This document shows positions 33,857-63,940 of a DNA stretch of 64,000 bases, in pieces; within the stretch, counting starts at the first letter, position 1, and each line of letters starts with the position of its first letter. Source of the stretch: Candidatus Poribacteria bacterium (GTDB taxonomy: Bacteria; Poribacteria; WGA-4E; GCA-2687025); assembly GCA_028818695.1 (NCBI GenBank), contig JAPPNK010000025.1, positions 99,018 through 163,017 on the forward strand. Reading direction: 5' to 3'. Position numbers and translations under genes: made by a program. Below the pieces are notes generated by a model. The model ran no database searches. It was not told the origin of the DNA and saw nothing but the letters and a program-made list of their open reading frames with translations.

Positions 33857-33992
33857 AGTTGGGACATTCGCCTGGGCGAACGCAGACGGCTTCTGCGGCG
33901 CCTCTGGATTCCCGCTTTCGCGGGAATGACGGCCTGGTTGGCGGCGCCTTTTTCCCATAAATAAAGCGATCATTCGTTCAAATGTCCCAACT
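33857..33992. repeat. MITE-like repeat, family A, copy 1
   Basis: A ~136-base element bounded by inverted termini GTTGGGACAT...ATGTCCCAAC, with a central palindrome ATTCCCGCTTTCGCGGGAAT. It is the same element as 47999-48134 in the opposite orientation, and a decayed one lies at 59489-59648. It fills most of the gap between the 3' end of alaS and the 5' end of the crystallin-like gene. Confidence 0.85.
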
Positions 33993-44370: not shown

Positions 44371-44517
44371 GCCTCTACAGGCGATGATATACGAAAATCC
44401 TGTTCAAATCGGGAAGATCGTCATTCCCGCGAAAGCGGGAATCTAGAGTTCTCCCAGACAGCCTCCCCATTCTAAAACGGCTCTTTAAAATCAAAATCAT
44501 CGCCTATAGAGACTGCC
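44371..44517. repeat. MITE-like repeat, family B, copy 1
   Basis: A ~147-base element with inverted termini CTCTACAGGCGATGAT...ATCATCGCCTATAGAG and a central palindrome ATTCCCGCGAAAGCGGGAAT. It is almost identical to 63793-63940 and to the reverse complement of 53166-53313. It lies between the convergent TPR and pafA-like genes and could fold into a bidirectional terminator. Confidence 0.88.
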
Positions 44518-44561: not shown

Positions 44562-46028
44562 CTACTCCATTTCCGCGGACGGTTCAGACGCCTGTCGATC
44601 TAGTATGTCTTCTAGGGCGCCGCGCATCGATTCGTATGTGTGGAAAGGATCCAGCATCTTCACCAGCTGTCCTGTTTCTAGATAGATTGTGTCCCAGTCG
44701 ACCGCGCTCATGATCGGGCGCTCCGAGAGCATGCGCATGATGAGGGAACGGCCGTAGGCGCGCGTGTCGCGCGGGGCGTCGTACATCGCGTCTTCCACCT
44801 CGCGGTCGCTCACCAGCTCCCGCATCAAGCCCTCCTCCACAAGATCGGCGTAAAGGCTCCTGTCAGGGTCGATCTTATGGTATTCCAGATCGACGCTTTG
44901 AAGCCATGGGTCGTCCCAAGACAGCTTCTCCTCCTCCACAAACGTCTCCAGAAGCCACTTCTTCGCCACCCAGTCGATCCGATCCTTCAACAGCTCAGGG
45001 TCCTGCGACAGCCCTTCCAGCGCGCTGCGCCATTCTCGAAGGATCGCGTCCATCTCGATCGACTCTCCCAGAAGGTAACGCTCCGCCATTTCCAGATATG
45101 TTTCCTGGATCTCCATCGCGCTTGTGTATCCGCCCTGCGCGAGCGCGATCGGCCAAGGGCTTTTCACCGCGCGCGAGACAATGCGCAGCGACCGTATCGG
45201 ATTCGCAATATCCATCTCCGGAAAATTGACCCCCGCTTCAATCATCTGCAGAACCGCCGCCGTCGATCCGATCTTCAGCATATGGGCGTACTCCGACATG
45301 TTCGTGTCGCCCAGCAGCAGATGCAAACGCCGAAAGCGGTTCGAATCTGCCAGCGGTTCGTCGCGCGTGTTGATGATGGCGCGGCTGAACTGAACCCACT
45401 GGTACTGCTCCGTCACGATATGGTCGCTGCGCTGCGAGATCTGATACGGCGAGTCGAGATCGATGCGCGTCGCGCGCCGATGCCGCCGCGGCGAGTCTGC
45501 CTCCCACATATCCTCTTCATGGCAGCCGATGCGTCCGGCGCCTGCGTAAATCTGCCGCGTGATCAAAAACGGTATCAGAGCTGGAATGACGCGCTGATAA
45601 AAATCTATATCTCGGCTCATCAGATAATTTTCGTGGTATCCGAAGGTCGCGCCCGTCACATGGTCGATGTTGTTGCGCACAAAAGAGGCTTGATCCCGCA
45701 AGCCCAGCCCGTCTAGCGCGTCCACAATCAGGTTGTCCATCGCCCGCTCATACACAATCAGGTCGCGCACCGAGCGGCACTCCGGGGTCGCATATTCGAT
45801 ATGCCCCATGTCGATATAGAGGCGTCCGCCGTTGAACATGAAGCCGCCGTTGCCGGGAGGCTCCCCCCAGTCGCGGTAATGCTCGTCCAGCATTCCGACA
45901 TCCATTTCGCGGAACATGTAATCTTTCACGCGGAGCGCTAGGGCTTCAGGCGTGATCTCCATCGCCAGATCGTCGTCTTCAATGAGGCAGCCGTATTCGA
46001 TCTCCGTGCCAAATAGACGCGGGTTCAT
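44562..46028 (-). CDS. pafA: PafA/Dop family ligase of the UBact-proteasome system
   Basis: The 488-residue product belongs to the glutamine-synthetase-like PafA/Dop family. The N-terminus has GTEIEYG with ATP/Mg-binding Glu residues, then NGGRLYIDMGHIEYATPEC with the catalytic-base region, and a VRNNIDHVTGATFGYHENYL segment that fits PafA (NNTDSAGNSYGCHENYL) better than Dop. The enzyme would join the C-terminal Glu of the modifier to lysines of target proteins. It is the last gene of the operon; its ATG overlaps the alpha-subunit stop (ATGA). No second Dop-type gene is in the window. Confidence 0.88.
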   Translation of the reverse strand: MNPRLFGTEIEYGCLIEDDDLAMEITPEALALRVKDYMFREMDVGMLDEHYRDWGEPPGNGGFMFNGGRLYIDMGHIEYATPECRSVRDLIVYERAMDNLIVDALDGLGLRDQASFVRNNIDHVTGATFGYHENYLMSRDIDFYQRVIPALIPFLITRQIYAGAGRIGCHEEDMWEADSPRRHRRATRIDLDSPYQISQRSDHIVTEQYQWVQFSRAIINTRDEPLADSNRFRRLHLLLGDTNMSEYAHMLKIGSTAAVLQMIEAGVNFPEMDIANPIRSLRIVSRAVKSPWPIALAQGGYTSAMEIQETYLEMAERYLLGESIEMDAILREWRSALEGLSQDPELLKDRIDWVAKKWLLETFVEEEKLSWDDPWLQSVDLEYHKIDPDRSLYADLVEEGLMRELVSDREVEDAMYDAPRDTRAYGRSLIMRMLSERPIMSAVDWDTIYLETGQLVKMLDPFHTYESMRGALEDILDRQASEPSAEME

Positions 46029-46840
46029 CTGTCTTGCCCGTTCTCCTTTGGACGCAGCTTTTCGGCCGCTTCTTCGACGACGCGCAGCTCCTCTTTCGTC
46101 AACTTGCGGTATTTCGCCTTGCCGCTCAATGTATGGTCTAGGACTGCCGCTTCAGGCAGAAGCCGCTCCGCCGCTTTTGCGAGAGCCGCTCCGACTGCGT
46201 CGTCCGACGGCGGGGGCCGCTCCTCAATTCGGTCGTCGTCCGCCTCGTTGAACGCCGCGTCGAAGGAGGCTCCCCATGCGTAAACGGCGCAGCGCAGCGA
46301 TTCTTCAAGACCTGGCGATTCGGACAGGCGCGACTCCATCGCATGCAGGGCTGTTTCTTCCGCGTCCTGCGTTCCGGCTGCGGCTCCGAAGCGGTCATGC
46401 GAGCTGAAGTTGCCGTCAAAATTGACGGTGAAAAACTGCGTCTGCTCCGCTTTCGGCGCCAGCTCCGCCATTAAGCATTTGGCGATGAACGGGGAACGGT
46501 AGATTTCGTCGAACGCCTGCTTGATCTGGGGAGCTATAGTGAAATGGAGCAGCCGCTGGAGCGTCACATCGTCCGCGGAGCGCGCAAACCCCTCCACATG
46601 CGCCAGGTTAACGGCGATCATGCGCAGCCGCTCCACATCGGCGGGATGCCCCAACGCGCCCATCGCCAGCCGATCGTACACCTCATAGACTTTCTGCTGC
46701 CCGCGCGGGCGCATTGTGAAGAGCAGAGCGCCGTTGTTGTAGGGCAAGCCGACTACGGGGCTGCCGCTGCGCAGACGTTTTTCGACGTACTGAACGCGGT
46801 TTTCTAGCGCCTGAATCCATCGGCGCGGCTCGTCATACAT
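46025..46840 (-). CDS. prcA: 20S proteasome alpha subunit
   Basis: The 271-residue protein matches bacterial proteasome alpha subunits: an opening MYDEPRRWIQALENRVQYVE, then GSPVVGLPYNNGALLFTMRP, then KVYEVYDRLAMGALGHPADVERLRM. It ends with a long charged tail, which may gate or bind partners. It would form the outer rings of the core particle. It overlaps the beta-subunit gene upstream by 8 bases and the ligase gene downstream. Confidence 0.9.
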   Translation of the reverse strand: MYDEPRRWIQALENRVQYVEKRLRSGSPVVGLPYNNGALLFTMRPRGQQKVYEVYDRLAMGALGHPADVERLRMIAVNLAHVEGFARSADDVTLQRLLHFTIAPQIKQAFDEIYRSPFIAKCLMAELAPKAEQTQFFTVNFDGNFSSHDRFGAAAGTQDAEETALHAMESRLSESPGLEESLRCAVYAWGASFDAAFNEADDDRIEERPPPSDDAVGAALAKAAERLLPEAAVLDHTLSGKAKYRKLTKEELRVVEEAAEKLRPKENGQDR

Positions 46841-47618
46841 CGGACCCGCCGATCGCTGTCAGCGTCTCTTCAGAGAGCGTCTCGACGCCGTCTTCGGTCA
46901 AGCATTTGACGGTGGGCGTTCCGCCTCCTGTCGCGGAGTCGAAGTGCGCCGCGGCTTGAAGCATGCGCTGGGTCAGCTGGATTGCCGCCCGTCTGTCCAG
47001 ATCGGCGATTCGCTGCCGCCAGCGGTTTTCATAATACAACGCGCCGCGTATCCATACCGATCCGGAGCCTGCCGCGGCGAAGTCGGTCATTTCAAACTGG
47101 GCGCCGAGCGCGTCGTAGAAGTAGAGCCGCGTTTCGCCTGCGAGGTTGTCGTACGCCGCAAAAATGGGCAGCACCCCGCCGATGCCCTGCAGCGCCATCC
47201 CAAGATTTTCTTTGATCAATTGCGAAAGGGCGCGCAATTTCCCTTCTAGGCTCATCTCCTGAAGTTGACTGCGCTTGTAGTACCTAAAGGAGTATTCCAG
47301 AACGCGCGCCATCTCATATGCGGCGGCGGGGGAGCCTGAGATCGCCATCACCGAGCGTTCGTCGATCTCAAGGACCTTGTCGGCGCGGTCGTACATAATG
47401 GCGGAGCCGGCTACGGCGCGCCGGTCGCCGGCGATGAGAGCGCCGTCTTTGTAACGCAGCGCCAGCACGGTTGTGCTTTCGGTATGTTGAAGCGCGCCGT
47501 CGGCGCCGTCGGCGTTGAGAGCGGGCATCGGGGACATTCCCTGCGCGCGCAGGAGCGACAGAAAATCGCCGCGGAAGCCCGCGCCGTATAACGCCCATTG
47601 GCTGGATGTGTCGTCCAC
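46833..47618 (-). CDS. prcB: 20S proteasome beta subunit (catalytic)
   Basis: The 261-residue precursor has a ~48-residue propeptide, then the Thr1 nucleophile in the TTVLALRYKDG motif. Counting from that Thr, Asp17 (AGDRR) and Lys33 (RADKV) fall at the correct catalytic positions. SPAAAYEMARVLEY continues the fold. The residue before Thr1 is Ser (HTES/TTV), where Gly is usual, so self-processing might differ in rate. The GTG start at 47618 follows a GGAG overlapping the UBact stop. The core particle degrades tagged proteins. Confidence 0.92.
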   Translation of the reverse strand: MDDTSSQWALYGAGFRGDFLSLLRAQGMSPMPALNADGADGALQHTESTTVLALRYKDGALIAGDRRAVAGSAIMYDRADKVLEIDERSVMAISGSPAAAYEMARVLEYSFRYYKRSQLQEMSLEGKLRALSQLIKENLGMALQGIGGVLPIFAAYDNLAGETRLYFYDALGAQFEMTDFAAAGSGSVWIRGALYYENRWRQRIADLDRRAAIQLTQRMLQAAAHFDSATGGGTPTVKCLTEDGVETLSEETLTAIGGSDV

Positions 47619-47629
47619 TCTTGCGGCTC

Positions 47630-47824
47630 CTATTCGCCTGTCCGCTGCCGATACCGGCGCGCCTGGTCTTTGTCGACCTGGCGCATTCGCCGCAGCAGTC
47701 GTTTTCGGCTCGGCTCTTCTATGTCGGGGCGCGTCGGGCCGGCGTCGTCTCCGCCGCCTTCCTTGCGCCAGGGTTCTTTAGTTCGCTGCGGGCGTTCTTT
47801 GCGCGTCGCGTCTTCCATTTTCAT
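47630..47824 (-). CDS. ubact: UBact, ubiquitin-like protein modifier
   Basis: The 64-residue product is rich in Arg, Lys and Glu, has no membrane or signal segment, and ends in YRQRTGE. That ending is the hallmark of UBact, the Pup-like modifier described in several Gram-negative phyla. The terminal Glu could be conjugated directly without deamidation. ATG 47824 is preceded by AAGGAG at good spacing; the frame extends 13 codons upstream without an SD. It lies 11 bases before prcB, the typical place for Pup-like genes. It is small and disordered, so similarity searches can miss it. Confidence 0.88.
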   Translation of the reverse strand: MKMEDATRKERPQRTKEPWRKEGGGDDAGPTRPDIEEPSRKRLLRRMRQVDKDQARRYRQRTGE

Positions 47825-47853
47825 TGCGCTCTCCTTCTTTATCGCTTGGAAGG

Positions 47854-47882
47854 AGATTACCAAACATGGAGCCGTTTGTCAA
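47854..47882 (-). promoter_or_regulatory. Sigma-70-type promoter of the UBact-proteasome operon
   Basis: On the minus strand TTGACA and TAATCT are separated by 17 bases. The predicted start of transcription (~47847) leaves a short leader of ~22 bases before the UBact ATG. No other promoter is seen inside the operon. Confidence 0.65.
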
Positions 47883-47998: not shown

Positions 47999-48134
47999 AG
48001 TTGGGACATTTAAACGAATGATCGCTCTATTTATAGGGAAAAGGCTCCGCCCACCAAAGCGTCATTCCCGCGAAAGCGGGAATCTAGAGGCGCCGCAGAT
48101 ACCGCCTGCGTTCGCATGTCGACATGTCCCAACT
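47999..48134. repeat. MITE-like repeat, family A, copy 2
   Basis: A ~136-base element with inverted termini GTTGGGACAT...ATGTCCCAAC and the central ATTCCCGCGAAAGCGGGAAT palindrome, in the reverse orientation to 33857-33992. It lies in the divergent gap between the UBact operon and rplM, ending 24 bases before the rplM -35 box. An outer arm near 47955-47971 (CTCAACTTCACGCATGA) pairs with the element's left flank (TCATGCATGAAGTTGGG). Confidence 0.85.
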
Positions 48135-53165: not shown

Positions 53166-53313
53166 GGCAGTTATGGACGATGATTTTGATTTTAAAGAGC
53201 CGTTTTAGAAGCGGAGGCTGTCTGGGAGAACTCTGGATTCCCGCTTTCGCGGGAATGACGATCTGCCCGATTTGAACGGGATTTTCGTATATCAATCATC
53301 GCCTGTAGAGGCA
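53166..53313. repeat. MITE-like repeat, family B, copy 2 (reverse orientation)
   Basis: Its reverse complement matches 44371-44517 across its length, including the CTAAAACGGCTCTTTAAAAT end and the ATTCCCGCTTTCGCGGGAAT palindrome. It lies between the convergent cysteine synthase and methyltransferase-HNH genes, 22 and 5 bases from their stops, and may serve both as terminator. Confidence 0.88.
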
Positions 53314-63792: not shown

Positions 63793-63940
63793 GCCCCTAA
63801 CAGGCGATGATGTACGAAAATCCTGTTCAAATTGGGCAGATCGTCATTCCCGCGCAAGCGGGAATCCAGAGAGCTCCCAGACAGTCTTCGCATTCTAAAA
63901 CGGCTCTTTAAAATCAAAATCATCGCCTATAGAGACTGCC
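63793..63940. repeat. MITE-like repeat, family B, copy 3
   Basis: Nearly identical to 44371-44517: same GGCGATGAT termini, ATTCCCGCGCAAGCGGGAAT centre (one arm altered) and CTAAAACGGCTCTTTAAAAT segment. It is downstream of the RND gene. ATTTTT(T)GGGTAG stands on both sides (63781 and 63941), a possible target duplication. Confidence 0.88.

Follow-up and report, generated by a model that had tools for sequence, protein, structure and literature searches.

A UBact-proteasome operon in a Candidatus Poribacteria genome with a second, Pup-type tag-proteasome gene set

The UBact operon of the window

The stretch under analysis, referred to below as the window, comprises 64,000 nucleotides from Candidatus Poribacteria bacterium (assembly GCA_028818695.1, contig JAPPNK010000025.1, positions 99,018 to 163,017 of the forward strand) and carries an operon for the Pup-like protein tag UBact, the two subunits of a proteasome and an enzyme of the PafA/Dop type. 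The four genes are tightly packed on the minus strand (47824-44562), and all four frames are intact. The sequence-only reading, made earlier from the letters of this DNA, had put the gaps between the genes at 11 bases or less, which agrees with the coordinates: 11 bases separate the ubact stop from prcB, prcB and prcA overlap by 8 bases, and prcA and pafA overlap by 4. The features of the locus are as follows.

47854..47882, minus strand: candidate promoter TTGACA-17-TAATCT with a weak -10 box (sequence reading)
47831..47836, minus strand: AAGGAG, likely ribosome-binding site of ubact (sequence reading)
47630..47824, minus strand: ubact, tag of 64 residues with the C terminus YRQRTGE (PF20513, NF033388)
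46833..47618, minus strand: prcB, UBact type, catalytic beta subunit with propeptide (PF00227)
46025..46840, minus strand: prcA, UBact type, alpha subunit with Ile119 (PF00227)
44562..46028, minus strand: pafA, UBact type, predicted UBact ligase with catalytic Asp73 (PF03136)

The 64-residue protein had been taken for UBact, and both curated models of that family recognized it above their cut-offs, PF20513 with 64.7 bits (cut-off 27.8, E 6.4e-18) and NCBIfam NF033388 with 67.7 bits (cut-off 35). It ends in RTGE, in agreement with the proposed R(T/S)G(E/Q) signature; among 37 UBact C termini, 31 were RTGE, five RTGQ and one RSGQ. The protein does not belong to the Pup family, as its end is TGE instead of GG(E/Q) and the sole PF05639 match of the genome lies on another contig (C25). 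Because its C terminus is already Glu, a deamidation step would be unnecessary. A protein search with the window UBact returned one match, a nameless protein of 64 residues with 98% identity. Conservation of the frame among related genomes was clear, with PF20513 matches in 71 of the 78 genomes of the class, the window's genome among them. The ratio of nonsynonymous to synonymous substitution rates (dN/dS), calculated on frames taken from stop to stop, was 0.04 to 0.28 for ubact in five pairs of relatives and 0.04 to 0.16 for the five other UBact-type genes, those of the enzymes and the proteasome, in four or five pairs each; the species of the window had no relative close enough and stands outside these pairs. 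Judged by these ratios, all six UBact-type genes appear to be under purifying selection in the relatives. The model matches, the conservation and the low dN/dS in relatives together indicate that the ubact frame is not a chance one.

The window PrcB matched PF00227 with 97.8 bits and solved beta chains with a best E of 5e-26. When residue 49 is aligned to the first residue of the mature chain, Thr49, Asp65 and Lys81 correspond to Thr1, Asp17 and Lys33, so the catalytic residues reported earlier are indeed in place; their spacing was kept in 36 of 36 UBact-type beta subunits. The two genes after prcB had been read as an alpha subunit and a PafA/Dop-type enzyme, and they matched PF00227 (29.9 bits; solved bacterial alpha chains, best E 9e-14) and PF03136, respectively. 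With its catalytic residues and paired alpha subunit the core is that of a bacterial 20S proteasome, yet both subunits fell below the NCBIfam equivalog cut-offs (for PrcB, 150.1 bits against 191.9 in 20S_bact_beta). The intact frames, the conserved catalytic residues and the purifying selection in relatives suggest that the UBact system of the window is functional.

A single TTGACA/TAATCT promoter had been proposed for the operon. Both boxes are present with a spacer of 17, and the -35 box (47882-47877) is perfect; the -10 box (47859-47854), however, agrees with the consensus at three of six bases, and a promoter scan did not list this candidate ahead of ubact.

Two gene sets in one genome and across the class

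If UBact systems work as Pup systems do, they require an unfoldase, plus a depupylase if tagging is to be reversed. The window operon is only a part of the UBact set, as it holds neither of these genes. Contig C35 of the same genome carries an Mpa-type ATPase adjoining a Dop, and both were assigned to the UBact set since they fall in UBact-type clades (UBact-type and Pup-type proteins are marked _U and _P hereafter). Mpa_U scored 452.2 bits against pup_AAA TIGR03689, below the cut-off of 504.75, and it ends in LEGAI, without a GQYL-like tail bearing a penultimate Tyr. Three other loci of the window's family (L071, L072 and L073) likewise have no mpa-dop beside ubact.

The same genome carries a second complete set, of the Pup type. 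The genes mpa, dop, pup, prcB and prcA lie in this order on contig C25, and PafA_P lies on contig C31. The Pup protein has 66 residues, ends in QRGGE and scored 57.3 bits in Pfam (cut-off 27) and 39.5 in the NCBIfam C-terminal model, slightly below the cut-off of 41.45. Four of the six proteins of this set (Mpa, Dop, beta and alpha) were above their NCBIfam cut-offs, whereas the five proteins that accompany the tag in the UBact set all fell below the equivalog cut-offs. In total, the genome holds one UBact, one Pup, four Pup_ligase genes, four proteasome subunits forming two alpha-beta pairs, and two Mpa-type ATPases (the two best of five matches). Between the two sets, counterparts are 27 to 44% identical, and the tags 20%. 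Contamination of the assembly as the source of the second set is hardly credible and was rejected, for although the contigs of the Pup set are short, at 20.5 and 13.2 kb, tetranucleotide use matches that of the window in C25 (r 0.98) and C31 (0.96) as it does in C35 (0.95), eight loci taken from other genomes giving 0.28-0.74, and both six-gene operons lie on one contig in six of six single-contig relatives (G017, G025, G041, G043, G050 and G052).

The pair of systems extends over the class, whose named relatives are Candidatus Poribacteria. UBact was found in 71 of the 78 genomes, Pup in 73 and both in 66, and no genome had neither; among the 54 genomes with completeness of at least 90% and contamination of at most 5%, the numbers were 51, 53 and 50, respectively. 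Exactly four Pup_ligase matches occurred in 59 of the 78, and the 12 genomes with one tag had exactly two matches in seven cases, three in three and four in two. All six UBact-type genes stood together in 16 of 20 UBact loci of relatives, in the order mpa-dop-ubact-prcB-prcA-pafA, the four exceptions being the three loci of the window's family mentioned above and L080, which lies on a contig of 4.8 kb. Mixed loci were not seen: there was no Pup-type gene in the 20 UBact loci and no UBact-type gene in 20 Pup loci. In a further member of the window's family (G001, locus L070) the six UBact-type genes are together, with pafA_U broken over several overlapping frames, which reflects faulty assembly or gene decay and is the likely cause of the nine Pup_ligase matches in that genome; L070 was left out of the ligase counts and the core-charge comparison.

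For named organisms, tags and ligases were counted in 32 genomes, drawing on 32 of 46 loci. Both tags were present in 10 of 10 Poribacteria, nine of which are, by coordinates, already among the 78 and thus add names and not new cases. Three Verrucomicrobia and one Chthonomonas had UBact only. The other 18 comprised one with both tags (Nitrospirae isolate L.E.N.18, G092), one with UBact and no Pup match (Nitrospira RCB, G100) and 16 with Pup only. The ligase matches numbered four in eight of the Poribacteria and five in two, and four each in L.E.N.18 and RCB, where both machineries are present. In the four UBact-only genomes there were 2, 2, 2 and 3 (two of the three being pieces of one broken gene); the Pup-only genomes had two in 12, one in two, three in one (a fragment included) and four in one, which has two Pups. 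The loci of UBact-only genomes carried UBact-type genes, and those of Pup-only genomes Pup-type genes.

In quick trees of Mpa, PrcB and PrcA, each of the two types formed a single clade with an SH-aLRT support of 100, with a long-branch warning for PrcA. In a careful ligase tree of 69 rows, the clades PafA_U, Dop_U, PafA_P and Dop_P had supports of 100/100, 100/96, 100/100 and 95/98, respectively; the support of Dop_U was 88 in a quick tree of 151 rows that included the long Chthonomonas branch. Length limits were 380 residues for ligases, 400 for ATPases and 200 for subunits, which left the broken Dop_U of L024 below the limit, and the repeat rows L082, L107, L109 and L110 (the same as L019, L058, L063 and L044) were dropped before counting, L109 being kept in the 151-row tree. 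The UBact-type clades contain members of Poribacteria, Verrucomicrobia and Nitrospirota, joined in the Dop and PrcB trees by a Chthonomonas, and the Pup-type clades draw on Poribacteria, Nitrospirota, Nitrospinota and Actinomycetota. Because both types of clade cross phyla, the two sets appear from these trees to be old, separately inherited cassettes, and a recent duplication of one system within the class was rejected for the same reason.

Separation of the two sets and the role of the window enzyme

With two complete gene sets, the cell would likely run two disposal lines, and we consider it probable that these lines tag and degrade proteins in parallel with little cross-talk. On the model of pupylation, PafA_U of the UBact line would use ATP to activate UBact at its C-terminal Glu and then link UBact to target lysines, and Dop_U would take it off again. 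Mpa_U would catch the basic tag with the helical region at its N terminus and then unfold the target and feed it into the barrel of PrcA_U and PrcB_U. Pup targets would be handled in the same manner by Pup, PafA_P, Dop_P, Mpa_P, PrcA_P and PrcB_P. Two features may insulate the lines: first, the opposite charge of the tags, with UBact enzymes tending to be more acidic; second, a Tyr/Phe-X tail facing Glu119 in the Pup set and a Val/Ile-X tail (Ala-Ile in this genome) facing Ile119 in the UBact set.

Regarding the first feature, the charge of the last 30 residues ranged from +4 to +7 in 37 UBacts (mean +5.5) and from -12 to -3 in as many Pups (mean -9.4). The core charge was -21.4 in PafA_U versus -1.9 in PafA_P and -25.6 in Dop_U versus -13.2 in Dop_P. 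The ATPases were modestly apart (-22.7 in the UBact type and -16.1 in the Pup type), and the subunits differed little (beta -5.9 versus -5.5; alpha -11.0 versus -8.1, UBact type first). In pairwise comparison within genomes, the UBact enzyme was the more acidic in seven of seven cases for PafA and six of seven for Dop, the exception being the Dop of the window's own genome. These sequences thus show a trend toward more acidic UBact enzymes. Basic-to-acidic swaps at single alignment columns numbered two in PafA and three in Dop, with none in the reverse direction, too few for locating a groove. A short or acidic N terminus of Mpa_U was also considered as the tag receiver and dropped, as the protein of this genome has no acidic stretch and the lengths are alike in both types.

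Regarding the second feature, the penultimate residue of the ATPase was Tyr in 43 and Phe in five of 48 Pup-type proteins. Neither occurred in the 32 UBact-type proteins, where Val was found in 27, Ile in four and Ala in one, that of the window's genome. In passages of PMC9599533 on the mycobacterial alpha ring, the Tyr of the GQYL tail contacts Arg26 or Glu119, the tail backbone contacts Asp144, and the tail carboxylate contacts Lys52 in one of two binding modes. At the position aligned with 119, Glu was present in 44 of 44 Pup-type alpha subunits and Ile in 35 of 35 of the UBact type; at position 26, Lys or Arg stood in 32 of the 44, and Leu, Pro, Gly or Val in 25 of the 35. All 79 alpha subunits of the two types taken together have Lys52, and 76 of them have Asp144. 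In this alignment the residues expected to touch Tyr are altered where the Tyr tail is gone, while those holding the tail in general are kept. The joint change of tail and pocket suggests a new key instead of a lost one, and the two switches are fixed clade differences, each possibly a single event.

A reading in which two tags share one machinery, so that either ligase, ATPase or core serves both and the second set provides dosage or stress-specific expression, is unlikely. The homology of all parts noted above, the unchanged Lys52 and largely unchanged Asp144 of the docking pocket, and the similar charge of Dop_U and Dop_P in the window's genome would fit such sharing. However, the tags are oppositely charged, the Tyr tail is lost from the UBact-type ATPases with the alpha pocket altered to match, none of the 40 fetched loci is mixed, and genomes with one tag carry loci of the type of that tag. 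It is also rather improbable that UBact regulates instead of degrading, with a core that lost ATPase-driven gate opening along with the Tyr tail. The missing penultimate Tyr/Phe in all UBact-type ATPases would be expected in that case, but the catalytic spacing kept in every UBact-type core and the joint change of tail and pocket argue against it.

The window enzyme PafA_U matched Pup_ligase PF03136 with 429.6 bits and stayed below both equivalog cut-offs, with 330.4 bits (cut-off 551.3) in the PafA model TIGR03686 and 330.6 (cut-off 492.3) in the Dop model; the Pup-type PafA of the same genome was also below the TIGR03686 cut-off (503.8). The W motif of the Dop-loop was absent from all 35 PafA_U and present in 30 of 31 Dop_U, by a strict pattern that recovered 20 of 47 Dop_P. 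In its place, 32 of the 35 have a loop HxRxxxEPPxNGGF, whose core EPPxNGGF was absent from 37 PafA_P, 31 Dop_U and 47 Dop_P. We then used positions that separate Dop from PafA in Table 1 of PMC7947786, where PafA has an extra residue beside the catalytic Asp. Like PafA, all 35 PafA_U have Asp/Asn ahead of the C-terminal Trp, and at least 29 of the 35 are PafA-like at the alpha-loop His; like Dop, 34 of the 35, the window enzyme included, have two residues between the catalytic Asp and His. The predicted fold of the window enzyme (mean pLDDT 87.6) matched Dop and PafA alike, Dop slightly better, and so leaves the activity undecided; by sequence, too, the nearest solved structures were Dop, with a slight lean.

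As the UBact set already has a full Dop, the window PafA_U probably is the UBact ligase, a role likelier for this sequence than that of a depupylase. That it is a second depupylase-like enzyme, with UBact joined by another one such as Dop_U or PafA_P, seems doubtful. The closest solved structures, the Dop-type spacing at the catalytic Asp and the central split of the ligase tree, which puts PafA_U with Dop_U (90/92), would speak for it. Against it stand the missing W motif, the PafA-style residue before the C-terminal Trp and the Dop with a Dop-loop already in the set, and a tree joining both Dops was not rejected (p 0.246). If real, this deepest split would imply that ligase and depupylase originated twice, separately; it suggests an independent origin of the UBact ligase, the alternative tree not being rejected at p 0.246. 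For the class as a whole, we regard it as evenly balanced whether each cell has two pathways insulated by tag charge and a re-keyed lock, with a UBact ligase that may have arisen a second time from a depupylase-like ancestor.

Surroundings of the operon and relation to known systems

The frames on the plus strand beyond the promoter, which by eye we take to be ribosomal proteins and purA, seem unrelated to the UBact operon. A palindromic repeat of 23 bases, ATTCCCGCTTTCGCGGGAATGAC, occurs in five copies in the window, one with a mismatch (chance 0.01), at 33908-33930, 44420-44442, 48061-48083, 53237-53259 and 63843-63865. The UBact operon is flanked by two of them in the same orientation, 44420-44442 and 48061-48083. 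No copy was seen in the parts of C25, C35 and C31 that were fetched, or in five loci from three members of the family.

Several arrangements were observed outside the class. Three Verrucomicrobia (L020, L024 and L025) have a UBact-type operon whose pafA shares 48 to 50% identity with that of the window, a value within the range of Poribacteria from other families, and this suggests movement of the UBact-type operon between phyla. In some Nitrospirota the Pup gene lies away from mpa-dop-prcB-prcA, at about 84 kb (G097; loci L042/L111), at more than 100 kb (G102; L054/L113) or on another contig (G090, L033/L112; G092, L035/L105). In the Chthonomonas (L109, G109:C46), dop, ubact and prcB adjoin and a second ligase gene lies on another contig; within the fetched 14 kb of that locus, no alpha subunit or Mpa was detected. 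Isolate JZ-2 (L108, G106:C59), a bacterium without a phylum name, has a second Pup gene outside the operon, ending in FTQRGGE.

Poribacteria may be among the phyla with reported UBact. The UBact-proteasome system was reportedly described by Lehmann and others in 2017. The window set shares with that system the tag family (PF20513, NF033388), the RTGE end and the operon with prcB, prcA and PafA/Dop enzymes. It may differ from that system in having a complete Pup system alongside, an ATPase without the Tyr tail, an altered alpha pocket, and its ATPase and depupylase on another contig. The C25/C31 set looks like a member of the Actinomycetota-type Pup-proteasome system, with which it shares the six kinds of parts and, in relatives, the order mpa-dop-pup-prcB-prcA-pafA. 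The window set differs from that system in that its tag is basic, its ligase bears a distinct loop, its ATPase ends in a Val/Ile/Ala tail, its alpha subunit has the Ile119 pocket and its place is outside the Pup-type clades. The Nitrospirota L.E.N.18 and RCB likewise have a UBact-type six-gene operon together with a Pup-type mpa-dop-prcB-prcA-pafA, and differ in that Pup lies on another contig in L.E.N.18 and was not found in RCB.

By itself the UBact operon of the window is ordinary; a class-wide pair of complete systems with oppositely charged tags and re-keyed docking is not. No report of UBact and Pup in one cell was found among the literature matches listed; the founding UBact paper lay outside that search, and prior mention is possible. 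The published Dop/PafA tree, in the passages of PMC7947786 that describe it, holds one Dop and one PafA per genome, so that a second pair would be hidden. With five UBact-type proteins below the NCBI equivalog cut-offs, genomes with two systems may also look like genomes with one.

Cells with two tags offer a direct way to ask how ubiquitin-like pathways stay apart and why a cell would keep two disposal lines, as well as which residues make a proteasome admit one ATPase and turn away another. The matched change of tail and pocket lends itself to testing how specific docking is, and the second pathway, if truly insulated, would be a possible tool for targeted degradation in laboratory bacteria. 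The finding also bears on the history of pupylation.

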